Source: Flavobacteriales bacterium (GTDB lineage: Bacteria > Bacteroidota > Bacteroidia > UBA10329). Taken from it: a stretch of DNA of 64,000 bases. Shown one piece after another: positions 1,733 through 22,300 of the stretch (within the stretch, counting starts at the first letter, position 1; each line of letters starts with the position of its first letter). A model generated the notes under the pieces. It made no database searches and had not been told where the DNA came from. It saw only the letters and a program-made list of their open reading frames with translations. The position numbers and the translations under genes are program-made. The stretch lies in contig JAIPBM010000003.1 in assembly GCA_021739695.1 (NCBI GenBank), positions 62,001 to 126,000 of the forward strand. The letters are read 5' to 3'.

Positions 1733-4700
1733 ATGAGAATTATTGATCGAGACGATATAAAAGCTTGGGGTAAATCATTTGGATCAAAAGGCCAACTACC
1801 TGTTCTCTTAGCGAAATTATCAAGAGCCACATCAGGGTTCTCTACTAGAATACATTTCCCATCTGGCAGTGCGGTTACGACTTCAGGATTTGACGGAATC
1901 GTAGATTGTACCGAAGAACACGCCTATGTTCCTGAGGGTCGTTCTATCTGGGAATTTGGAACTGAGCCTGGACCAAAAACCAAAGCCCAAGAAGACTACG
2001 ACAAGAGAACGACTAATCCCAGAGGTCAAACTTTGTCAAAATGCACTTTCGTTTTTGTTACTACTGAGCCTTGGGTGGATAAAGATGTTTGGATTGAGGA
2101 AAGGAAAGCAGATGGAGTTTGGGAGGATATTAGGGTGCTGAATTGCAATGACCTTGAAGAATGGATTGATTTGGCCCCTGCCGTTGGTCGAGAATTCTAT
2201 AAACAAGTAACTGGTGCTTCTATTGACGATATACTTACTGCAGAAGAAAGTTGGAGAGAGTTCAGTACTGGCCCGTATAAACTTAGCTGTGAAATGCTAA
2301 CAGCTGGTCGTTTGCACGACTCTACTCAGATTGACACTTTTTTGGCTGGAAATCCAGGTATTTTAGCCATAAAGGCTTCATCAAGAGACGAGGCAATAGC
2401 CTTCATAATTGCATCTGCATTTCAGTTCAGTGATACAGTCAGGTCAAAGGCATTTTTCCATAAATGTCTTGTGGTAAGCGACCCACGTCAATTTAGGCAA
2501 ATGGCAAAATCAGGAAAAAAATTAAACCTAGTTGCCAATTTTGAAGACTACAGACCCATTTACACTGCAGTGGAGGATGGTCATCACGTCCTAGTTCCAC
2601 TTGGAGCAGATGATAATTTCAATCCAAACCCAGATTTACTACCCCTTCTTGATGGTGTTATTTTGACCGAGGAGCTAGTGAAACTTGGCATTGATTATGA
2701 TCAGGCAAGACGATTCATTAAAGAATCTGCTAACAACATTACACTTCTTAAAGAACGGCTTGGATTTCCACCTTTAAATGTAGACTGGAATAAAGCAGAG
2801 TTTGCAACTGATTTACTTGCAGCTTTAATTGTTGGGAAATGGAACGAGGAGAGCAGTGGAGACAAGAAAATTTTGGAAACCATTTCGGGGTTGCCATACG
2901 AACAATATGTACAGAAGCTATCCAGATGGAAATCTGACCCAGTTCCTCCAATTATTCAAATCGGAAGTACTTGGAGAATATCGTCCCCATTAATCGTTTG
3001 GAGGAACTTGGCAGAGTACATTTCCCATGAACATATGGTGTCTTTCAAAAAGGCTTTCGAAGAGGTTCTGTTGAATAATAAGCCAATTGAGGTTGACGTA
3101 CCAAATCACGCTTTCACCTTCTTTTCAAGAGAATACATGTATTCCTCAGATTGTAGAGAGGGATTATGTCAGTCAATGATTTTAGTTGCACTATACGGGG
3201 TTGGGCTGAAGCTATTCAGTGATGGAGATTCTCAATCATGGGTTGATGAAATTGTTGCTCAGATGTTGGATAGAGCAGATAGCCAACTTTGGATATCACT
3301 AGATAGAATAATGCCGTTAATCGCTGAAGCATCTCCGGAATCATTCATCCAAGCGGTTTTAGACTCGTTAAATTCCTCAACACAATCTATTATGGGCATG
3401 TTTGAAGAGGTGGATGGGATCATATCCCCAAACAGCCATCACACAGGTCTTCTTTGGGCTTTGGAAGGGTTGGCATGGATGCCAGAATATATTTCCGATG
3501 TCGCCATTATTTTAGCCAAGCTTGCTGCTCTTGACCCAGGTGGAAATCTTGCCAACAGACCGGACAACTCATTACGTGAAATCTTCAAACCATGGCACAT
3601 TCAGACTTTTACTTCGCAAGAAGATAGATTAGTGGTATTGAACAGAATAGCTGACAGTGTTCCTGAAGTTGGTTGGAAACTCCTCGTGAGCTTACTCCCG
3701 AAGTTCCACGATATGGGGCAACCAACTCATAAACCACGGTGGCGAATGTTTGAGAAGTCATTTAAGGTCCTAACCACTTATGAAGAGCTATACAGCACCC
3801 ACACTAGAATTGTAAAACTCCTCATAGATAGGGTCGGAAAATCTGAAGACCGAATTGCCAATCTCCTTGAAGAATCTGACAACCTTGCTCCTGCTGACAG
3901 AGCAATAATCATAAAAAAGGCATCTGAACTAGCAGGAACACTGGATGAAACAAATCATTTAGTGTGGCACACGTTGCGTAAGCACTTATCTCATCACAGA
4001 TCACACCCAGATGCCAAGTGGGCATTATCTGAAGCAGATCTGCAACCGTATGCTGAGTTGTATACAAAATACTCACCTGGTGAAGGAGTAGATAGCATCG
4101 AGTGGTTATTTGCTGAACATGGTCCAAGTTTTGCGGATTCGAAGGCGTATGACTCATTAAACTTTTCTGATTCCCACAAAGAGCGTGAGGAACGAATTTC
4201 TCAAGAACGAATTAAGGCTTTAAATGCACTTGTAGAAAGTGACGGTTTTGATTCCATAAAAGAGCTCAAAGAGCGTCTTGAGGATGGTTGGTATCTCGGT
4301 CAATCTCTAGCACAAGCTTATTTGACAGACAAGCAAGAATATCAGATTCTTGAGGAATATCTGGGGATAGAAACAAATGATCGTTTTATTTCTGGCTATA
4401 TCTTTCACAGCGCAAGAGAAAAAGGAACAGATTGGGTTACAAGGACATTTGAGCAGCTAGAACAAAAGGGCCTAGACCCTGATAAGTTAGTCTCATTCCT
4501 GATTTCAGTGGAAAGTACTCCAGACTTGTGGAAATACATAAACTCTTTGAAAGACGAGGTTGTTACTGGCTATTGGAAACACATGAGGCCAGTTCTTCAT
4601 GAACTAAAAAAAGAGAATGCTGAATATCAACTGAATAAGTTGATACTAGTCCAACGGCATGCGACTTGTATACAAGTGGCTTTTTACCACCGAGAACATA

Positions 4701-5512
4701 TCCCAACTAAAGTCATTTTTGAGGTTCTACATAGTGCAGGTTCAAGAACCCCTGATGAAGCATTTGGTGGTCGGAGTTATGAGATTGAACAGCTTTTTAC
4801 AGAGCTTGACGTAAGAGGTGATATTGAGAGAGATAAGTTGATTCAACTTGAACTTCTGTACTTACCGGTTTTAGAGTCGTATGGAAACAATAGAAACCTG
4901 AAGACCTTACACGAGGAGTTAAGTTCGAATGCCGAATCGTTCATTACGGTTTTGTCGTGGCTATATAAGCCGGAAAGTGACGAGCAAAGAGAGTTAGAGG
5001 TGAAAGATGTTGACGATAAGACTCTTTCGAATCGAAGCATGGCTGCATACAGAATCCTCAGCTCTTGGAAATTAATACCGGGAAAAACTGATGACGGTGT
5101 TGCTGAAGCCAAGTTGATAGAGTGGATCGAACAAGTGAGAGAGCAAGCAAAAGCATGTAGTAGACTAGACGTTGCCGATTCACGTATTGGTGAAATTTTA
5201 GCAGAATTTCCACAAGGAAAATTTAACGGCTGGCTGCCTGATGGCTTATGTAAAAAACTTGAAGGCTATGAAAGTGAATCTATACTAAGAGGACTGTCAA
5301 GAGCTCTATACAACCAACGCGGCTCCTCTAGCCGAGGTGTTTATGCTGGCGGTGAAATAGAACGAGGTCATGCCGACTACTTCCTTAAGCTTGAAGAATA
5401 TCATCAAGTTAAGTATCCTAAAATTGCTTCAGTATTTAGGCAGCTCCGCACAGGATACCTGAAACAAGCGAAGAAAATGGATGACGAGGCGGTTAGAAAC
5501 CAACTGGATTGA
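1733..5512 (+). CDS. Large putative defence protein: nuclease-like N-terminus, STAND-like core, helical tail
   Basis: This encodes 1259 residues with no signal peptide or membrane segment. Residues about 1-160 contain a GFDGIVD motif (52-58), a WEFG motif (73-76) and a KTKAQEDYDKR segment (82-92). The Asp, Glu and Lys spacing fits a PD-(D/E)XK-type restriction-endonuclease-like fold, but the assignment is inferred. Near residue 207 a GILAIKAS segment sits where a STAND-type P-loop would be expected, and it lacks the full Gly-rich Walker A. From about residue 350 to the end the protein is a long run of helical segments, like the HEAT/TPR sensor arms of large antiviral proteins. The start is supported by the domain beginning at once. 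The 3' end overlaps the convergent ATPase gene by 20 bases. It could instead be a housekeeping protein of the element. Confidence 0.65.
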   Translation: MRIIDRDDIKAWGKSFGSKGQLPVLLAKLSRATSGFSTRIHFPSGSAVTTSGFDGIVDCTEEHAYVPEGRSIWEFGTEPGPKTKAQEDYDKRTTNPRGQTLSKCTFVFVTTEPWVDKDVWIEERKADGVWEDIRVLNCNDLEEWIDLAPAVGREFYKQVTGASIDDILTAEESWREFSTGPYKLSCEMLTAGRLHDSTQIDTFLAGNPGILAIKASSRDEAIAFIIASAFQFSDTVRSKAFFHKCLVVSDPRQFRQMAKSGKKLNLVANFEDYRPIYTAVEDGHHVLVPLGADDNFNPNPDLLPLLDGVILTEELVKLGIDYDQARRFIKESANNITLLKERLGFPPLNVDWNKAEFATDLLAALIVGKWNEESSGDKKILETISGLPYEQYVQKLSRWKSDPVPPIIQIGSTWRISSPLIVWRNLAEYISHEHMVSFKKAFEEVLLNNKPIEVDVPNHAFTFFSREYMYSSDCREGLCQSMILVALYGVGLKLFSDGDSQSWVDEIVAQMLDRADSQLWISLDRIMPLIAEASPESFIQAVLDSLNSSTQSIMGMFEEVDGIISPNSHHTGLLWALEGLAWMPEYISDVAIILAKLAALDPGGNLANRPDNSLREIFKPWHIQTFTSQEDRLVVLNRIADSVPEVGWKLLVSLLPKFHDMGQPTHKPRWRMFEKSFKVLTTYEELYSTHTRIVKLLIDRVGKSEDRIANLLEESDNLAPADRAIIIKKASELAGTLDETNHLVWHTLRKHLSHHRSHPDAKWALSEADLQPYAELYTKYSPGEGVDSIEWLFAEHGPSFADSKAYDSLNFSDSHKEREERISQERIKALNALVESDGFDSIKELKERLEDGWYLGQSLAQAYLTDKQEYQILEEYLGIETNDRFISGYIFHSAREKGTDWVTRTFEQLEQKGLDPDKLVSFLISVESTPDLWKYINSLKDEVVTGYWKHMRPVLHELKKENAEYQLNKLILVQRHATCIQVAFYHREHIPTKVIFEVLHSAGSRTPDEAFGGRSYEIEQLFTELDVRGDIERDKLIQLELLYLPVLESYGNNRNLKTLHEELSSNAESFITVLSWLYKPESDEQRELEVKDVDDKTLSNRSMAAYRILSSWKLIPGKTDDGVAEAKLIEWIEQVREQAKACSRLDVADSRIGEILAEFPQGKFNGWLPDGLCKKLEGYESESILRGLSRALYNQRGSSSRGVYAGGEIERGHADYFLKLEEYHQVKYPKIASVFRQLRTGYLKQAKKMDDEAVRNQLD

Positions 5513-6677
5513 TGCTCAAGGTATAACTGCTAAACGGTTTTGATGGCTTGCCATCTATCATCAAGGTCAAGTAAATGTGGTAGTTTGGGAGTGACATGAA
5601 ATCAATGGGTTCAAATACAGGAGACATTTTCTTTGCCATATAGTCCGCATCAAAGGCATCTACTCTGAATGAGATATGTGTTCCAATGTTTCCCAATACG
5701 GCATTTCTAAGTTCAAGAGGTAGCTGATCCATGTATTGGTGAGCCATAACCATCCCTACTTTAAACTTTCGTAGTTCTGAGAGCATATTGACCAATGAGA
5801 GAGTCGTGAAATTTTGGAATTCATCAAGAAAAATATGGAATGGAACTCGTTCGGATTCTTGCTTGTCGACACGGCTAAAAGCTGCTGATGATAGGGAAGT
5901 GAGAAGTACCGCACCGAGGATATGGGCCACATCTTCTCCAACTGCTCCTTTTGATAGGTTGACCAAGAGGATTTTCTTTTCATCCATCAAAGACCGAAGA
6001 GATATTCTGTCCTTGTTGTCCACCAATATTCGTTTGATGGCAGGATATGCAAGCATCCCTCCTACCTTATTCAATGCAGGAAGTATGTCGTAGTATGAAT
6101 ACCGAGGAAACTCCTTAGTCCAGAAGTTACGTACCTCAGGATTCTCCACATGTTCCAAGGCTTTCTTTCTGAATTCCTTGTCCATGAGCATGGTTGAAAC
6201 TTGGGAAATATCAGCTTCTGGTTGATCAAGAAGAGCGAGAAGGGTGAATCTCAAGATGTGTTCGAGTTTTACACCCCACGCATCAAACCAGAGCTTCTTG
6301 AGGGTTTCTAAAATTGAAGATGCTACAAGCGCTCGTTTCTCATAACTGACCTTTCGAAGTGGATTGTACCCAAAGGATTGATTGGGGTTGGTGACATCGA
6401 TATAGACCACATCATTCTTTCGATTGGGTGGAATCTTTTGGAGTATTCGGTTCACTAGGTCACCATGGGGATCAATGAGGCAAAAGCCTCGATTGTGGAT
6501 GGCGTCCTGGGTCATAAGGGTTTCTAAAAGGGTACTCTTTCCCGTACCTGTTTTCCCAATGATGTATGTGTGCAAAAGGCGGTCAGCCTGCTTGATTCCA
6601 AAAGGAACACCTGCGTTTCTGAAGGTGGTTTTTGCGAAATAGCTTATGTCTCCATTTCCACTGTTGGCCATACTCAA
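5493..6677 (-). CDS. HerA/VirD4-like type IV secretion/conjugation ATPase
   Basis: This encodes 394 residues of a P-loop DNA-pumping ATPase of the HerA/FtsK superfamily, close to VirD4/TraD coupling proteins. It has a perfect Walker A (GKTGTGKST, residues 41-49), a conserved LIDPHGD segment after it, and a Walker B-like FLDEFQNF near residue 290. A later GMVMAHQYMDQL segment matches the sensor region of this family. There is no N-terminal membrane segment, unlike the second coupling protein at 13405. It could move DNA during conjugation or act as the motor of a defence complex, since HerA ATPases partner with nucleases in several known systems. It is convergent with the 1733 gene and divergent from the methyltransferase-like gene. 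Confidence 0.85.
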   Translation of the reverse strand: MSMANSGNGDISYFAKTTFRNAGVPFGIKQADRLLHTYIIGKTGTGKSTLLETLMTQDAIHNRGFCLIDPHGDLVNRILQKIPPNRKNDVVYIDVTNPNQSFGYNPLRKVSYEKRALVASSILETLKKLWFDAWGVKLEHILRFTLLALLDQPEADISQVSTMLMDKEFRKKALEHVENPEVRNFWTKEFPRYSYYDILPALNKVGGMLAYPAIKRILVDNKDRISLRSLMDEKKILLVNLSKGAVGEDVAHILGAVLLTSLSSAAFSRVDKQESERVPFHIFLDEFQNFTTLSLVNMLSELRKFKVGMVMAHQYMDQLPLELRNAVLGNIGTHISFRVDAFDADYMAKKMSPVFEPIDFMSLPNYHIYLTLMIDGKPSKPFSSYTLSINPVGF

Positions 6678-11789: not shown

Positions 11790-11821
11790 CCACCTACACA
11801 ATACTTGTAGGTGGTTTTTTA
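11790..11821 (+). terminator. Strong rho-independent terminator
   Basis: A 9-bp perfect stem (CCACCTACA / TGTAGGTGG) with a seven-base loop is followed by six T residues. It starts 26 bases after the stop of the 96-residue gene. Confidence 0.9.
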
Positions 11822-12151: not shown

Positions 12152-12988
12152 CTAACGCTCAATACCAAAGCGGTCATCCAGTGGTCGATTTCTCAAGGAG
12201 GCAAGCTCAATCGACCTTTCACTTTCAAGCAATAGTCCTTGTATCCGTTCTTGGTTTACACCAAGTTTATTAAAGCGAAAGCGCCTTCCTTCGTGCTCTA
12301 CTCCGTAGAGTTTTCCACCACGATAGTATGGCTCATACTGATTCTCCTTTAAGTTGTCGAACCAATCATCCAAGCCATCAGCTTGTTCTAAGGAAGAGGA
12401 AAGAAAGTTGCGTATGACCTCTCGATGAAAGACACCGTTTCGGAGCTTTATTTGGTATTCCTTGTCTGAAGCCTCAAGCTGCTCTCTATGCTTCTTGCCA
12501 TGATCCGCGAGGCTACTGTAGTGCAATTCAGGGAAATTAATCTGTTGGTACAATTGCAATTCTTTCTTCATGTCTTGGAAAGACTCAATACTCATTCTTT
12601 TGTTCTTACCCGTAAGGTCAAGAGGGGATTCAACCAGATGTAAGTGATGATGGTCTGCATCATGATGTGACACGATGAGGTATTTTGAATCCAAGCCTCG
12701 AAGAGAAACGTATTTGAGCGCCATGGCTTTCAGTACTTCTTCATCCACATGTTTAGAGTCGTCCGGTGCTAAGGCAATCACCGTGTGTATGAGCTTGATG
12801 TTATGTTTATGATGAAGTTGCCGGAGTTTCTCATTGTCCTCGAATTCTTTCACCCAATCTTCGATTGATTGGCCTTTCAAATTCCATGGAATAAGAATGC
12901 CCTTGTCACCAAGGGCATCTTCACGCATCACATACGATATCAGCTGCTTATACGATGCCAATTTCCGAGTGAGCGTCTTGAGAATCAT
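12152..12988 (-). CDS. MOBP-like relaxase/mobilization nuclease
   Basis: This encodes 278 residues. The metal-binding motif of the relaxase family is plain at residues 108-117 (HHDADHHHLH, with His108, His113, His115 and His117). A Tyr near the N-terminus (Tyr13 or Tyr19 in the SYKQLISYV segment) is a candidate for the strand-nicking residue. Its reaction would be cutting at oriT and covalently holding the transferred DNA strand. It is shorter than many relaxases of this type and has no helicase or primase extension. Its start overlaps the MobC-like gene by 41 bases, making it the last gene of the minus-strand operon from 17184. Confidence 0.85.
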   Translation of the reverse strand: MILKTLTRKLASYKQLISYVMREDALGDKGILIPWNLKGQSIEDWVKEFEDNEKLRQLHHKHNIKLIHTVIALAPDDSKHVDEEVLKAMALKYVSLRGLDSKYLIVSHHDADHHHLHLVESPLDLTGKNKRMSIESFQDMKKELQLYQQINFPELHYSSLADHGKKHREQLEASDKEYQIKLRNGVFHREVIRNFLSSSLEQADGLDDWFDNLKENQYEPYYRGGKLYGVEHEGRRFRFNKLGVNQERIQGLLLESERSIELASLRNRPLDDRFGIER

Positions 12989-13412
12989 TCTCTAACTTTT
13001 TGATAAGCTTTTCCATATCACCAATCATCTTTTGCAACATGGTTTTCTTTGTCTCGTCCAGTATGTCGCCCTGAATCAGGGTCAATACTTGAAGTGAGGT
13101 GGAAAGGGTAGCCACAACTTCAATCGTTGAGAATTCTAACATCCGTTTTTGGTTCAACTCTGATAAAACCAACGTCTTAAGATATGTAGAGAGACCTTGG
13201 CCGAACCTATTACTCTTTGGGACAATGCTTCTCATCTCCTTATCGGTGAATTCCAAGGTGACAGGCGTGAGATTCTCTCTGCGCTCACGTTGGTACTCTC
13301 GCAGATAGACCTTTCTAAATTCAAACCTGAGACGATCCTTCGTATCTCGATCAGCGTTCATGGCTCCTTTCATCTCAAGATAATCCCAGAAATTGATTCC
13401 TGACTTATACAT
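12948..13412 (-). CDS. MobC-like mobilization accessory protein
   Basis: This encodes 154 residues. The region about residues 50-90 (LEFTDKEMRSIVP, then LSTYLKTLVLSEL) resembles the ribbon-helix-helix DNA-binding part of MobC/MbpC-type proteins, which guide the relaxase to oriT. The C-terminal third is a likely amphipathic helix or coiled coil. It overlaps the coupling protein gene by 8 bases upstream and the relaxase gene by 41 bases downstream, so all three are translationally linked. The assignment rests on this position and the weak DNA-binding pattern. Confidence 0.65.
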   Translation of the reverse strand: MYKSGINFWDYLEMKGAMNADRDTKDRLRFEFRKVYLREYQRERRENLTPVTLEFTDKEMRSIVPKSNRFGQGLSTYLKTLVLSELNQKRMLEFSTIEVVATLSTSLQVLTLIQGDILDETKKTMLQKMIGDMEKLIKKLENDSQDAHSEIGIV

Positions 13413-14832
13413 CGCTCCCAGTATTTGAGTTCAACTTGTCGAGGTCGAGATATGGTATGTGCGTTGGAAGGTGACCCTTGAATTCAACAGGAGGCATCTT
13501 CGCATATTTGCTGTATTTGCTGTACTTGTAGTAGGGGGCCAATCTCACTAGCATTGGACGTTTAGAACCACTTGTCAGAATTCCCATGTCGGGGTCGAGG
13601 TGCATGAGTTCATCGACCTCCTTTGCGTTCTTAATGACCTTGTGACCTTTGTCGTCTTCAAATTGCCATTTTCCTAATCTTCTGGAAAACTGTCCTGCTA
13701 AATCCTCCGATAACCGTCCGAAGGCTATCAGGTTATTTGTGTTATCAAGAATGGTTGTGGCTGAGCCATGATATGTCGTTTGAAGTTGTGCCAAGCTTTG
13801 GCAGGCATAGAGGAGCATCACCCGATTTGCCCTACAATTTGAAATGAAAATTGGAAAAGAGGGCACGTACACGGATCCGAATTCTTCTAAAATCATGAGC
13901 AAATCAAGTTCTTCCTCTTTGGGGTACTGACTCAATATTTCATCAAATACCTGCTCGAAAAAGCAACTAACAAGAGGCTGGTAATATGTGTCCAGTCCAC
14001 TCTCAACGAATAGTACCGTTTGAGTGGTTCGAAGGGCACTGAGATCAATATCATCCCTTCCAGTCACTGCATTTACTATTGGATCATTGAAGATTTTTAG
14101 CGTTGCTAACACTGTACTTATAACATTGCTTTGAACCTTAGAATCTTGGGCGATGAAGGCTTTGTAAGCGTTGTACACCTCAGGATTATCAATGGTGCTT
14201 CGAGCTACGAAACTGTCGACCTGCTTAGGGTTCCCGAGCATTTGAGCGAGCAACTGATTTGTGTAGCCAAGTGTCCTGTATTGCTCGGCCATCAAATCCT
14301 GTATTCGCCAGAGTAGAACGCAGAGGTTCTGACCTGAGTTTCCCCAGAAATCGTGATCAGATTGCTTGCCGAAAAGGGCATGAGCCAATTTGTATTTGGC
14401 TGTGATGCTCGTTGCTCGTTTCAATGGGTTGTAGCCTAAGCTGTCCATTGAGTTGAACCTGAGAACCTCTACCTTATGTGTCATAGCAAGAAATCCGCTA
14501 GACTTCGTTCGTAATTCTCCTTTGGGGTCGAGGACCAGCTTCGATGTCGTATCACTCTGAAAAAGTGATGGTAATAGCACAACACTTGACTTACCCCCAC
14601 CCGACCCTGAAATCGTGGCAGAGGAACGGTAGCTTGCACTTTTGGAGAGTTGCTTGTTGATGCCAGCTATGGCAACTCCTGTGTTCCACATGGAAATCGT
14701 TCCTAAACTTGAATCGAAGTTTCCTTGAAGTTCCTTGCTTCTCTGATCACTAGGTAGCAATGCAAAGAGTACAAGCAGTGCAATGATGGCACCGATGAGC
14801 CATAGATTGAATAACAGTATTGCTAAATCCAT
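13405..14832 (-). CDS. VirD4/TraD-type conjugal coupling protein
   Basis: I chose the ATG at 14832 (475 residues); an earlier in-frame start at 14877 lies inside the preceding 48-residue gene. An N-terminal membrane segment (about residues 3-26) is followed by a Walker A (GSGGGKSS, about residues 76-83) and a Walker B-like LLMILEEFGS near residue 320. A VLDPKGEL segment matches the coupling-protein family after the P-loop. These proteins carry relaxase-DNA complexes to the secretion channel. No channel genes (VirB4 and others) are in the window, so the element may rely on another system. It is the fifth gene of the minus-strand operon. Confidence 0.85.
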   Translation of the reverse strand: MDLAILLFNLWLIGAIIALLVLFALLPSDQRSKELQGNFDSSLGTISMWNTGVAIAGINKQLSKSASYRSSATISGSGGGKSSVVLLPSLFQSDTTSKLVLDPKGELRTKSSGFLAMTHKVEVLRFNSMDSLGYNPLKRATSITAKYKLAHALFGKQSDHDFWGNSGQNLCVLLWRIQDLMAEQYRTLGYTNQLLAQMLGNPKQVDSFVARSTIDNPEVYNAYKAFIAQDSKVQSNVISTVLATLKIFNDPIVNAVTGRDDIDLSALRTTQTVLFVESGLDTYYQPLVSCFFEQVFDEILSQYPKEEELDLLMILEEFGSVYVPSFPIFISNCRANRVMLLYACQSLAQLQTTYHGSATTILDNTNNLIAFGRLSEDLAGQFSRRLGKWQFEDDKGHKVIKNAKEVDELMHLDPDMGILTSGSKRPMLVRLAPYYKYSKYSKYAKMPPVEFKGHLPTHIPYLDLDKLNSNTGSDV

Positions 14833-14845
14833 TGGTTGAGTTTTT

Positions 14846-14992
14846 TTAGTTCGACATTCGTTTGATGAAAAGGCCAAGGCTTTCTATAAGGAAGCCAAGA
14901 GCTTGAAGAAGAAGACAGATCAGCCATAGCAGTAACCGAAGTACTGCTATGGCGAAATCTCTCAGGTAGAGAAGGAGGTGTTTTTGCTGCAT
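14846..14992 (-). CDS. Small membrane peptide (48 residues) within the mobilization operon
   Basis: An ATG at 14992 starts four bases after the stop of the 259-residue gene. The product of 48 residues has a hydrophobic core of alternating Leu and aromatic residues (about 13-43) flanked by basic residues. The stop lies 13 bases before the start of the coupling protein gene. This exact fit between two tightly packed genes, plus the membrane character, argues for a real gene too short for usual thresholds. It may help anchor the coupling protein. Confidence 0.65.
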   Translation of the reverse strand: MQQKHLLLYLRDFAIAVLRLLLWLICLLLQALGFLIESLGLFIKRMSN

Positions 14993-14996
14993 CACT

Positions 14997-15776
14997 TTAG
15001 AATTTGAGATGCGTGTCTTTGGCGCGGATCACCACCCTTGCTCCTTGTTCCTCCAATCTTCGTTTGAGGAACTCCGAGCGGGTACGATAGGACGTTTCTT
15101 GATTCTGAGTTGGGCGGTAGATGAAGAAGATATGTATGCCTTTCAATTCAAGTTCTTTCGCACCCGGAATCTCATCCCAAACTAACCTGTCGTCTTTCTT
15201 CATCCTTTCAAGTGAGGGACTAGCATCCAGCCAATTCCGTTCATCATTGAATTCAGCCAGGTCTGAGAACACTATAAGAGCGCGGTCGTCCGTGGGGTAA
15301 TCACTCAGACTTTGTAATTCTTGAACAAGTGAACGAATGAATGAGGTTCGGTCGTACCCAATCCGTTCGGACATGACCTCCGATATGGTAGAGGATACTC
15401 CCAGTTCAAACTTCTCAATCTGACCCCTTCGGTATTCCTCATCCTTATGTCCCTCCCACTCTGTGGTGCTCCATTCTCCGATGATGCGGTAGGCAGGAAG
15501 TTCCAGATGTATCCTGTCCTCAGTCAGGATATCGGTCACTGGACGAATGACTACTCGTCTTGACTGTTTCAATTCATCCATACTGAACTCCAATTCAACG
15601 TGCTCGCTGTCGGCGGAAAGTTGGAACTCATTTGTCCTATCAAGTAAATAGGTTCTCCGATGAGTAGGGACTTCTCCGTGGTATGAAAAGATGAAGGATC
15701 CTGCGATAGCTAGCATGGCCACGAAGGCACATGACCCAAGTATTGCGAGTATTACATGTTGCGTTTTCATAATCAA
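14997..15776 (-). CDS. Membrane-anchored protein, possibly VWA-like
   Basis: This encodes 259 residues. One hydrophobic segment (about residues 8-30) anchors the N-terminus, and the rest should be extracytoplasmic. A strand-like RALIVFSDLAEF sequence and a later GIHIFFIYRP are reminiscent of von Willebrand factor A-type core strands, but a clear MIDAS Asp-x-Ser-x-Ser is absent, so this is tentative. It overlaps the 366-residue gene by four bases and precedes the 48-residue gene by four bases, so it is part of the mobilization operon. Confidence 0.55.
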   Translation of the reverse strand: MIMKTQHVILAILGSCAFVAMLAIAGSFIFSYHGEVPTHRRTYLLDRTNEFQLSADSEHVELEFSMDELKQSRRVVIRPVTDILTEDRIHLELPAYRIIGEWSTTEWEGHKDEEYRRGQIEKFELGVSSTISEVMSERIGYDRTSFIRSLVQELQSLSDYPTDDRALIVFSDLAEFNDERNWLDASPSLERMKKDDRLVWDEIPGAKELELKGIHIFFIYRPTQNQETSYRTRSEFLKRRLEEQGARVVIRAKDTHLKF

Positions 15777-16873
15777 TCGTTTTTAGTGGTTGTGAAAAAT
15801 GTCCGGTCCTCAATTCCGAAAAGAGGCTCTGGCCTTACTGCGGTGAAGCTGTCATCGATGCGTTCGCCTTTGTTGCTTCTGCCTTTCAGGTAGAGTGTCA
15901 GAAATTTTGAATGGGTTGACCGATGGTGATCTTCCAACATCTGGAACAATGCTTCAGCCTCACTCCTATCCAATTCTCCTTCCACCGCTGATTCGACCAA
16001 CAGGTTTCTCAGTTCCTGTTGACGGGCTTCTAGCTGTTGCTTTTTCTTGCGCAGTTCGGCTGTCTTCTGATGGTCATGCCATCTTTGACGGCTCACTTGG
16101 ATTTCTCCTCGGATAGGTTCAGTGAGGTAGTGAGAAGCCCATATAGCCCCGAAGAAAAAGAGGCTCAGGGTCACGAAAGCCATCTCTCCTGAAGTCTCAG
16201 TAATTCCTGAGTTTGCCAAGGTTTGAAGGCGTAATTTTGCGACCATCATAAAAAGGCCTGTCATGGTAAGTAGGGTTGTTGCCATGATTGCCACTTTCCA
16301 AGTAAGTTTTTCAGTCCGTTTCAGTAATCGGGTCAGCAACTGAATAATGACCAGCTTGGATATATTGAAACCAATCGCCAAAAACAGCGCAACAAGGTAG
16401 AACAACTTCAAACTTGAGAAGGCAGACGCATCAAACGCTATTTCGGTGAGAACTAGCAGGTAGCTAAGCCAAGACAGCAGTCGCTTCGATAGCGATACAC
16501 TATCTGGCGCGGTTTTTCCAACATTAGGATCATTGCTTAGTCTGTTGTTAACGTCTTCGAGATCAGCACCTGTTTCTTTCATCTCGTTCTCGTAGCTCTC
16601 AGTTCTCAGTCGTTCTATATCCCTGTTGGTAGGGTTAATCCAACCATGAACCATCTGTAGGAGCTTTCTGTACTCGTACCTGAGACCTTGCAGGTGGATG
16701 GTGAGCTCTGGAACACTTAATGGAATCCTGGACTCTGCCTGTTGTAATGCGTTCCGTATGGCTTCTTCTCGGACGTGTTCTGCCTCGTTAAGTAATTCTT
16801 GCTTGTGTGCCTCTTTTAAGGCCTTACGTTTCTTTGATTCCTCCTCATGGAATCGATATTCATTCGTTTTCAT
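15773..16873 (-). CDS. Four-helix membrane protein with coiled-coil ends
   Basis: This encodes 366 residues. The N-terminal 50 residues are Lys/Glu-rich with heptad character. Hydrophobic segments lie at about 132-150, 154-180, 193-213 and 231-249. A charged helix from about 260 to 300 follows, then a basic and polar C-terminus. No enzyme motif is seen. Overlap with the next gene indicates co-translation. It may form the membrane platform for the coupling protein, which is inference. The family is not recognised. Confidence 0.65.
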   Translation of the reverse strand: MKTNEYRFHEEESKKRKALKEAHKQELLNEAEHVREEAIRNALQQAESRIPLSVPELTIHLQGLRYEYRKLLQMVHGWINPTNRDIERLRTESYENEMKETGADLEDVNNRLSNDPNVGKTAPDSVSLSKRLLSWLSYLLVLTEIAFDASAFSSLKLFYLVALFLAIGFNISKLVIIQLLTRLLKRTEKLTWKVAIMATTLLTMTGLFMMVAKLRLQTLANSGITETSGEMAFVTLSLFFFGAIWASHYLTEPIRGEIQVSRQRWHDHQKTAELRKKKQQLEARQQELRNLLVESAVEGELDRSEAEALFQMLEDHHRSTHSKFLTLYLKGRSNKGERIDDSFTAVRPEPLFGIEDRTFFTTTKND

Positions 16874-16926
16874 CGTTTTGAGTTTTTAGAATTAACAGGT
16901 GATTTATTGGATTGTGTAGTTGTTGA

Positions 16927-17184
16927 TTACGCTCCATCGGGAGGGTCTCTTACCTGTTCAGTCCGAGCCCTGATCGTTTCCTGTAGGCATGCAGAAGCTT
17001 GGCTTTCCGACAAGCCATTGGAGACAAGGGTTTGGAAGAAGCGTATAGCGTGCTGAGCGTCCTTGATGGGGACATGGAGATTCTCAGTCGAAGTGCTTGA
17101 CAACTTTGACTGGTCTATGTTAGACTTGTTGTAGGTCGGGGTTTCCCGATGACCGAGAAGGTCTCGATTAGTTCTTTTTGTCAT
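16927..17184 (-). CDS. Small soluble protein, first gene of the mobilization operon
   Basis: This encodes 85 residues, Ser/Thr/Asn-rich in the first half, with a helical C-terminal half (DAQHAIRFFQTLVSNGLSES). It has no signal peptide or membrane segment. It is 53 bases upstream of the 366-residue gene on the same strand. It may regulate or assist the operon. The start ATG is preceded by AAAAAGTTCCGACAA, with no strong ribosome site, as is usual in Bacteroidota. Confidence 0.5.
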   Translation of the reverse strand: MTKRTNRDLLGHRETPTYNKSNIDQSKLSSTSTENLHVPIKDAQHAIRFFQTLVSNGLSESQASACLQETIRARTEQVRDPPDGA

Positions 17185-17358: not shown

Positions 17359-19110
17359 ATGGAAATTTCCAGAGCGACATTACTTGATTTACTTACCTCA
17401 AAACAATGGAAGGCCAGAGAAGCACTGGACAGGTTTACGTACAATTTTTATTTAAGAGACATTCTGAAACCTCGGCTGGAAGATTCAAAGCCACAACGGA
17501 TTAATGTGGGGAAGCTTTGTGTATCAAGGGCGGAGCTAGGAAAACTTGTGGAACATATTGAAGTGTCTGATTGGGGAGAAACCATGTTTCATTGGGTGAA
17601 GAATGTCACCATCCCCAACCTGACGACCTTAAAGTTTATTCATAAGTGGTTTAGCAACGGGATTGAACTTCTCACCTATAATCAGTTCTCCAAACAAACA
17701 GATCTTTGCTGTAAATACTTTGATGACAATCTAGAGGAGTACGTTCAGCGCATACAGTCGGACAGAGTGTGTCCGTTTACATTCAATGATGTTTTTTCAT
17801 ACGGAATTTCACTCAATTCAAAGGTTCTTGGTAGTAGCAATAAAGCTGGTGATGATGACGGGAGGCTTAAGATCATTACAATTCTCGTTGGGTTGTTAAT
17901 TGAAAATGGCAGAGCAAGTGCGGGGGAATTGAGCCTGTATTCCGCAGAATTTAAGTTAACTCGGTTACTAAGAAGTAAGCGACTTGATAAAGAGAGTAAC
18001 CTAGAATTAAAGAGTGAGATTTCGCGATTAAAATCGTTTCGAGTAAGCTCTGCCTCTCAATTCACGACAAGGGAATTCGTAGTGAAGTGGAAGGTGCTCC
18101 TGACGCTAAGCACTGCCATCTTCGTGGCACTTATGGCGTATACGTATCGTTCCAACTTCGGATTTGCCGGCTCCGATGTCAGTCTACCAGGTAGTTCCAT
18201 GTCCACTGTCGCGCTTCCACGACCATTTTCGGATACGTCAGCTCTACTCGATTCTAATTTTTGGGATTCTTATGAAGGCATTCTTCACACCAAAGAATAC
18301 TTTCTTCGCGAGGATTTTTGCGACTGGATGGAGGGTCTTGAGAGCTTGAATACTCTTGAAGACAAGCTTTACTATATGGACAGTATTGTTAAGGTAAAAC
18401 CGTTCTCACCCCGTGCTTTTGGAGAAAGAGCGAACATAAAATTTGAGATGAACTCATTTGATGAAGCTTTGAAAGACATTCAAATTGGAATTTCACTCAA
18501 GCCATATATCATTTGGGAATACTATATTAAAAAATCGTTCTTTCTCGGAACAAAAGGTCAGAAATGGGAGTCTCTCGTTTGTCTTGATTCCACCATGATG
18601 TTCCTACCCAAAGAAACTACGGACTCAATCAGAGCGGAATGTTACCTACTCCGAGCCTTAGCACGTGATAACCTGTCATTTTTAGATTCAGCTATTGCAG
18701 ACTACTATCGATCTCTCCAACTCTACCCAGACAAACCAATCGCCTATTATAAATTGGGTCGGGTAAATTTGGAAAACTCTGAATTCGAAAGTTCAATTGG
18801 CAACTTTCAAACACTTTTAAAGGCACACCACGAAGGAAGACCATTGGATGATGTCAAATTAGAAGACATATATTCGTACGTAGGGCTGGCATTTTATCAA
18901 ATAGCCAGATATTCTACGGAAACGACAAAAAACAGGGACGCACACATTAATTACTCAATAATGTACTGTGATAGTGCGCTAAAGCTGAATCCTCAGAATA
19001 TAATGGCCTCTAACACGAAAAAAAATGCAAAAGACTTGTACAAAGGATTAGTTCCTTTTATGGATCCCTTGAAATTGAGAAAATCGCGCGATACGCTCGG
19101 GGTAAACTAG
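17359..19110 (+). CDS. Membrane-anchored TPR protein of unknown function
   Basis: This encodes 583 residues. The first about 240 residues form an unrecognised, probably cytoplasmic domain. A membrane segment lies at about 243-262. Tetratricopeptide-type helical repeats follow from about 340 to 560, e.g. FDEALKDIQIGISLKP and DSAIADYYRSLQLYP. There is no signal peptide, so the TPR part probably faces the periplasm. It is transcribed away from the mobilization operon and may be a signalling protein or sensor. The family is not identified. Confidence 0.65.
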   Translation: MEISRATLLDLLTSKQWKAREALDRFTYNFYLRDILKPRLEDSKPQRINVGKLCVSRAELGKLVEHIEVSDWGETMFHWVKNVTIPNLTTLKFIHKWFSNGIELLTYNQFSKQTDLCCKYFDDNLEEYVQRIQSDRVCPFTFNDVFSYGISLNSKVLGSSNKAGDDDGRLKIITILVGLLIENGRASAGELSLYSAEFKLTRLLRSKRLDKESNLELKSEISRLKSFRVSSASQFTTREFVVKWKVLLTLSTAIFVALMAYTYRSNFGFAGSDVSLPGSSMSTVALPRPFSDTSALLDSNFWDSYEGILHTKEYFLREDFCDWMEGLESLNTLEDKLYYMDSIVKVKPFSPRAFGERANIKFEMNSFDEALKDIQIGISLKPYIIWEYYIKKSFFLGTKGQKWESLVCLDSTMMFLPKETTDSIRAECYLLRALARDNLSFLDSAIADYYRSLQLYPDKPIAYYKLGRVNLENSEFESSIGNFQTLLKAHHEGRPLDDVKLEDIYSYVGLAFYQIARYSTETTKNRDAHINYSIMYCDSALKLNPQNIMASNTKKNAKDLYKGLVPFMDPLKLRKSRDTLGVN

Positions 19111-22154: not shown

Positions 22155-22176
22155 ATGTTTTACCTATGTTTTACCA
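22155..22176. repeat. Tandem 11-bp repeats beside the tRNA (possible integrase arm sites)
   Basis: ATGTTTTACCT is followed at once by ATGTTTTACCA, matching at 10 of 11 bases. They lie about 50 bases from the tRNA 3' end on the element side, where tyrosine recombinases often bind arm-type repeats. No integrase gene is visible in the window. Confidence 0.4.
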
Positions 22177-22180
22177 AGCA

Positions 22181-22218: not shown

Positions 22219-22227
22219 CTCACTGTG

Positions 22228-22300
<73 letters not shown>

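Follow-up and report, generated by a model that had tools for sequence, protein, structure and literature searches.

A probable integrative mobilizable element at tRNA-Met in a Flavobacteriales bacterium, with its own VirD4-type coupling protein, an undescribed membrane set and a candidate export tail

The locus and its question

How does DNA leave a cell if its mobilization operon encodes a coupling protein and several membrane proteins but no VirB4-type motor? This question is raised by seven open reading frames (ORFs) on the minus strand at 12152-17184 of a 64,000-nucleotide stretch of a Flavobacteriales bacterium, here called the window (G000:C3:62001-126000, within the 4.24-Mb draft genome G000). 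Neighbouring ORFs overlap or lie at most 53 nt apart. They encode an 85-aa protein, a coiled-coil membrane protein (MP), a VWA protein, a micropeptide, a VirD4-type coupling protein, a MobC-like protein and a relaxase (Table 1). This layout had been described in a first-pass annotation made from the sequence alone, which contained neither the integrative element nor the wide conservation of the micropeptide gene nor the shared C-terminal tail reported here.

In our reading, which we consider probable though well short of certain, the operon is part of an integrative mobilizable element (IME) that has its own coupling protein, a membrane accessory complex and a shared export signal. Known relaxase and VirD4 families are joined with an undescribed set of membrane protein, VWA protein and micropeptide, and with a candidate for such a signal. 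What is established in the following are the boundaries of the element, its insertion at a tRNA-Met site that is empty in relatives, the conservation of the cassette, and the tail that, within the family, the relaxase has in common with other element proteins.

Integration at tRNA-Met

The operon belongs to a mobile element integrated in tRNA-Met, as seen from exact 45-bp repeats at both ends, a tyrosine integrase at attL and an empty site in congeners. The spacing of the direct repeats gives a length of 37,856 bp, inserted at the 3' end of the tRNA gene. The integrase gene (L006:2456-3790) begins 40 bp inside the attL repeat, and its product comprises arm-binding and core-binding domains. A query made of the joined flanks found an unbroken match across the junction in the congeners G403 and G527, whose sites are empty while that of G000 is occupied. 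Three features expected of an IME are present: a recombinase with terminal direct repeats, an empty site, and a relaxase of its own without a complete type IV secretion system (T4SS).

A 23-bp direct repeat, ATGTTTTACCTATGTTTTACCAA, lies just within either end of the element, close to the att sites (window 22155-22177 and L006:2520-2542). These copies are possibly integrase arm sites.

A cassette conserved in Bacteroidota

About 40 Bacteroidota loci have the order MP, VWA protein, micropeptide, VirD4, MobC-like protein and relaxase. Three of these are in G000, the two further copies being located on contigs C31 and C6 with VirD4 proteins only 30-50% identical. When 395 genomes of the class were searched with a VirD4 profile, 27 had a match, and the neighbourhoods of these matches were scanned with profiles. 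A contig scan with a ten-sequence VirD4 alignment added 22 loci, for which a two-sequence query had given none; nearly all of them are from uncultured Bacteroidota (Bacteroidales, Lentimicrobiaceae, Flavobacteriales). The plasmid collection contained no VirD4 relative.

After removal of duplicates, VirD4 and relaxase occur together in 48 loci. The VWA gene is also found within the retrieved sequence in 40 of them, always on the same strand. Among the remaining eight, contig ends truncate L064, L068 and L088, while in L059 the MP-VWA pair lies farther downstream on the same contig (L132). L066 was rejected as a VWA-less locus, since it holds a divergent MP-VWA pair. Therefore only one clade (L058, L060 and L061) is without MP and VWA protein, and no VWA match was found in its genomes, G671 and G653.

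VWA matches were found in 22 of the 395 genomes and number 31. Cassettes account for 28 of them; of the other three, two are at contig ends and one, in G452, is at another place. For MP the 395 genomes gave 30 matches at E <= 1e-15, of which 28 belong to cassettes and the other two to contig-end fragments. Because the orthologues are almost confined to cassettes, the genes upstream of VirD4 are part of the mobilization module, possibly recruited from an older membrane-VWA pair; their membership agrees with what had been supposed from the sequence. The annotation had named orthologues found mainly outside mobilization regions as the observation that would speak against this; the searches with VWA protein and MP gave the opposite result.

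Decayed copies of the cassette were also observed: L011 and L050 have a split relaxase frame, and L071 a split VWA frame. On contig C6 of G000 a gene for a sigma54-type AAA+ regulator, RtcR-like by eye (L005:11319-12740, plus strand), diverges from the cassette.

Relaxase, MobC-like protein and VirD4

Five of the seven operon proteins have no Pfam family. The relaxase and the coupling protein, both of which had been recognized before, are the two with clear domain matches (Table 1). The relaxase carries the three-histidine motif HHDADHHHLH, and an alignment of the three paralogues shows Y19, H108, H113, H115 and H117 to be conserved. Its scores with curated P-clade models stay far below the cut-offs (TraI_MobP 25 bits, cut-off 250; MobP1 18.9, cut-off 200). 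PDB sequences gave nothing of note for the relaxase or the small tail proteins.

The T4SS-DNA_transf ATPase domain of VirD4 reaches 125 bits (cut-off 20.1), and its profile matches the structures of Cag5 and TrwB. VirD4 coupling proteins usually have an N-terminal membrane anchor of two helices. Such an anchor was not seen by hydropathy, the only criterion applied, which indicates one transmembrane helix in the clade of the window; other clades have only a short hydrophobic segment there.

The name of the MobC-like protein is given by position only. Its conserved place between VirD4 and relaxase, recovered by profile in nearly all loci, agrees with the earlier assignment, but there is no match to a MobC profile in Pfam or NCBIfam.

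MP, VWA protein and micropeptide

MP had been described as a four-helix membrane protein. This is borne out by family hydropathy and by the model of the homologue from L074 (pLDDT 86.9), in which a cytoplasmic coiled coil is combined with four membrane helices and one long helix at the C-terminus. A fold search gave no significant PDB match for MP, and a PDB sequence search returned only chance coiled coils.

For the VWA protein, in which VWA-like strands had been suspected, the AlphaFold model of the window protein (pLDDT 78.9, pTM 0.74) confirms a VWA fold at the level of prediction. Nearly all top Foldseek matches are VWA domains (Rpn10, BRCA1-A, ITIH1, Ku, Sec23, integrin I), with modest scores: two matches only at E <= 0.001, and TM-scores of 0.3-0.4. 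By sequence, no PDB match was found. The usual metal site of VWA domains, DxSxS, is not present in the cassette family, which has DxT at this place and SDL later. In several relatives the protein resembles a lipoprotein. The genes for MP and VWA protein overlap by 4 nt in many loci, and in L063 and L065 both are one polypeptide that retains the hydrophobic or lipobox-like segment of the VWA protein internally.

The membrane peptide, annotated with 48 residues, is a genuine conserved gene, since a hydrophobic peptide of about 45-76 aa occupies the gap between VWA protein and VirD4 in 32 of 37 cassettes. Its end often resembles LWGxLRLxExxLxxxNxxLKKxI. That it is a detached N-terminus of VirD4 is kept only as an idea, since a comparison of the profiles gave no significant score (E 0.09, probability 0.7%). 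In the literature nothing relevant was found on a VWA partner of a relaxase. We propose that MP, VWA protein and micropeptide are an undescribed partner of the coupling protein in Bacteroidota, from genomes without a known transfer channel.

A C-terminal tail common to relaxase and other proteins

The relaxases of these cassettes end in a bipartite motif, approximately RxxELxx[ILVM]R and then, some 8-20 residues farther on and right at the terminus, hydrophobic-x-R (in the window SERSIELASLRNRPLDDRFGIER). Among 642 non-relaxase ORFs near VWA-bearing cassettes, the strict pattern is found in 16, compared with 0.03 in shuffled tails and none of 221 control ORFs. Because this pattern was chosen post hoc, a profile was trained on relaxases alone; at 12 bits or more it finds 22 of the 642 ORFs, whereas 0.8 are obtained with shuffles, 1.95 with internal segments and one among the 221 controls.

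At 21 loci a tailed relaxase is accompanied by at least one other tailed protein. The carriers belong to unrelated families, namely ArdC, tyrosine integrase, one AbiEii-like protein, a small family encoded at the start of the operon and, in addition, several unknown proteins. The tailed ArdC directly follows the relaxase, comprises PF08401 and PF18818 and continues for about 50 aa past the last domain, and four tyrosine integrases are tailed (L048, L050, L087, L092). Some small proteins have two tandem copies. Within loci the codons of the tails agree in 75 of 202 cases, compared with 61 expected from codon usage; since this is little beyond codon usage, the tails are kept at the protein level, and duplicated DNA was rejected as their origin. 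No report of a motif common to relaxase, integrase and ArdC was found in the open-access literature.

An AbiEii-like nucleotidyltransferase (PF08843; L083:2766-3479, minus strand) has the same tail, as cargo or by chance.

Proposed mechanism

We suggest that the integrase drives excision, after which relaxase and MobC-like protein would nick the origin of transfer. The C-terminal tail would then hand the relaxase-DNA complex to VirD4. A relaxase is the obligatory substrate that a coupling protein must recognise, and a tail that this VirD4 substrate has in common with integrase and ArdC is most simply explained as a coupling-protein export signal. In relatives the coupling protein would also receive ArdC, integrase and small proteins by means of the same tail, and these cargo proteins may enter the recipient with the strand and aid its protection and integration. 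MP, VWA protein and micropeptide would constitute a membrane docking platform for VirD4, made of a cytoplasmic coiled coil, a membrane bundle and a periplasmic VWA domain. As VirD4 has no usual two-helix anchor, we infer that MP and micropeptide supply it. The platform would link VirD4 to a transfer channel. None is encoded in G000, so the channel is probably borrowed, presumably from a conjugative element that the cell carries only on occasion.

Delivery of proteins together with DNA is known from conjugation systems, where the signals are C-terminal or internal and widely varied (PMC8406263, PMC11288057), and ArdC-type proteins were proposed to enter with the DNA (PMC5512222). If the tail is a coupling-protein signal, it would be a readable address label for proteins travelling with conjugating DNA. 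Integrase and anti-restriction protein would then be predicted to arrive with the strand, cargo could be predicted from sequence, and what enters the recipient with the DNA would become directly testable.

Several points weigh against this mechanism. Transfer, export and binding are proposed from genomic data. No convincing inverted repeat that could mark an oriT was found beside the operon, only one of 9 bp at 11790-11814. In the window the relaxase is the sole protein above 8 bits in the tail profile, in window, paralogues and congeners it alone scores clearly, and the cargo pattern comes from relatives. The strict pattern was written after the tails had been seen, and the relaxase-trained profile was also run afterwards. 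As the carriers are mostly from one clade of related cassettes, the tail counts depend in part on each other. That relaxases in the VWA-less clade stop short of the tail speaks for a link between the tail and the MP-VWA pair, but as a single loss event it is only suggestive. Weak MP-VWA-like relatives without VirD4 are found outside cassettes (L129 in G452 and L148 in G547). The ArdC of R388 works when made in the recipient, and its export is not needed (PMC7213743).

Channel and alternative explanations

TIGR03783 (TraG/VirB4) had no match in the 22 VWA-bearing genomes, which does not differ significantly from the class base rate of 20/247 (8%), and PF19044 (P-loop_TraG) gave one weak match only, in G469. 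The earlier observation that a VirB4 motor is missing holds for the whole of G000, where neither profile had a match. As no TraG-type VirB4 was found in the VWA-bearing genomes, a resident helper is not evident, and the annotated idea that the upstream genes recruit a host or helper secretion system has so far gained no support. A helper present only at times is possible and is the conservative reading; known mobilizable elements of Bacteroidota use the pore of integrative and conjugative elements such as CTnDOT (PMC5704250). The same lack of TraG could suggest that VirD4, MP, VWA protein and micropeptide are a self-sufficient DNA-export machine without VirB4 or classical channel. In its favour, the module is stable over many lineages, and TraG is present in both genomes of the sole VWA-less clade, G671 and G653. 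However, the cassette showed no component for the outer membrane, for a pilus or for crossing the peptidoglycan, the genomes are mostly draft metagenome-assembled genomes, and helpers may be transient. We regard such a minimal system as rather improbable. The same holds for a new conjugation type in which VirD4, MP, a VWA lipoprotein and the micropeptide move DNA and tail-tagged proteins (integrase, ArdC, others) without VirB4 or classical T4SS.

MP, VWA protein and micropeptide might also stand outside DNA export, as a regulatory or exclusion device for contact sensing or entry exclusion. The pairs in L129 and L148, which lie outside cassettes, indicate that MP and VWA protein have some use without VirD4, and in L055-L057 and L132 the pair is located 7-10 kb from VirD4. 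The relative in L148 has an intact metal-site motif, DKSGS. The tight operon with VirD4 in most loci and the one clade that has neither MP and VWA protein nor the relaxase tail speak against such a device, which appears unlikely. Somewhat more weight, though still on the doubtful side, is given to the view that the tail is another interaction motif, for a common partner or for DNA, or a stability determinant. Its function is read from shared sequence, and the tandem copies in small proteins would suit this view. On the other hand, the tail is always at the extreme C-terminus, on the relaxase as obligatory VirD4 substrate and on proteins plausible as delivered cargo, as an export signal would be. 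That ordinary mobilization genes lie beside unrelated cargo with tails alike by chance is hardly credible: relaxase and VirD4 are indeed known families, but the conserved order in about 40 loci and the tail statistics contradict it.

Comparison with known systems

The Bacteroidota IMEs NBU1, NBU2, Tn4555 and Tn4399 resemble this element in having no mating-pore genes, most of them have a tyrosine integrase, and NBU1 and NBU2 use the 3' end of a tRNA gene; their relaxase is of the MobP type (PMC5704250), to which that of the window may belong. No coupling protein is listed for them in that review (PMC5704250), whereas VirD4, MP, VWA protein and micropeptide are carried here; the shared tail on the relaxase is a further difference. 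With the VirD4/TraG coupling proteins TrwB and Cag5, the window VirD4 has the ATPase domain and the Walker motifs in common. In contrast to these, the VirD4 proteins of the cassettes have at most one N-terminal transmembrane helix or a short hydrophobic segment, and the window VirD4 is below the cut-off of NCBIfam CD1115 (131 versus 250 bits). The signals of the F-plasmid 'conjutome' and of other conjugation-delivered proteins vary widely, while here one motif is found on relaxase, integrase and ArdC. Polyvalent proteins and ArdC of conjugative elements likewise combine ArdC-N and zincin metallopeptidase domains beside a relaxase; unlike known ArdC, those of the relatives have a C-terminal extension of about 50 aa that ends in the relaxase tail.

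Features of the window and further observations

Homologue alignments suggest later starts for VirD4 (codon 16) and for the VWA protein (Table 1), with which two apparent overlaps vanish.

Table 1. Coordinates of the operon, the attachment sites and a neighbouring gene (window positions unless stated otherwise)
Feature	Position	Strand	Basis
Relaxase, 278 aa, MobA/VirD2 nuclease domain	12152..12988	-	PF03432, 1.4e-12
Relaxase C-terminal tail, proposed export signal	12155..12223	-	17.6 bits in relaxase-trained tail profile
MobC-like relaxosome accessory protein, 154 aa	12948..13412	-	position; no Pfam match
VirD4-type coupling protein	13405..14877 (probable start about 14832)	-	PF02534, 4.7e-36
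Membrane micropeptide, 49 aa	14846..14995	-	conserved gene in VWA-VirD4 gap
Membrane-anchored VWA-fold protein	14997..15776 (probable start 15770)	-	AlphaFold, Foldseek, family alignment
MP, coiled-coil membrane protein, four transmembrane helices	15773..16873	-	model of homologue L074
85-aa protein, first gene of the operon	16927..17184	-	ORF
TPR-repeat membrane protein, divergent from the operon	17359..19110	+	
attR, 45-bp repeat of tRNA-Met 3' end	22227..22271	.	exact repeat
tRNA-Met	22227-22300	-	
attL, 45-bp repeat	G000:C3:46371-46415 (outside, left of window)		exact repeat

For the 85-aa protein neither relatives nor a Pfam family were found. In many other cassettes this first position is occupied by a small tail-bearing protein, and a HicA-like identity considered for some of these was dropped, as there was no Pfam match. 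PADLOC gave no match on MP, VWA protein or 85-aa protein, and a defence-system reading of the three was rejected. The divergent TPR-repeat membrane protein also adjoins the cassette in three other loci.

The element encodes a second TraD/HerA-like ATPase of 394 aa (window 5493-6677, minus strand), relatives of which (34-65% identity) are located near cassettes in L056, L057, L058 and L070. The 1259-aa protein at window 1733-5512 (plus strand) is without a match in Pfam and NCBIfam and gave a marginal one to PADLOC PD-Lambda-4_A (E 0.0097); its gene may be a defence gene of the element. To the left of the window, the element also encodes a serine recombinase (L006:16058-17794) and a protein of 2107 aa (L006:6329-12652) that carries a sorting tail for type IX secretion.

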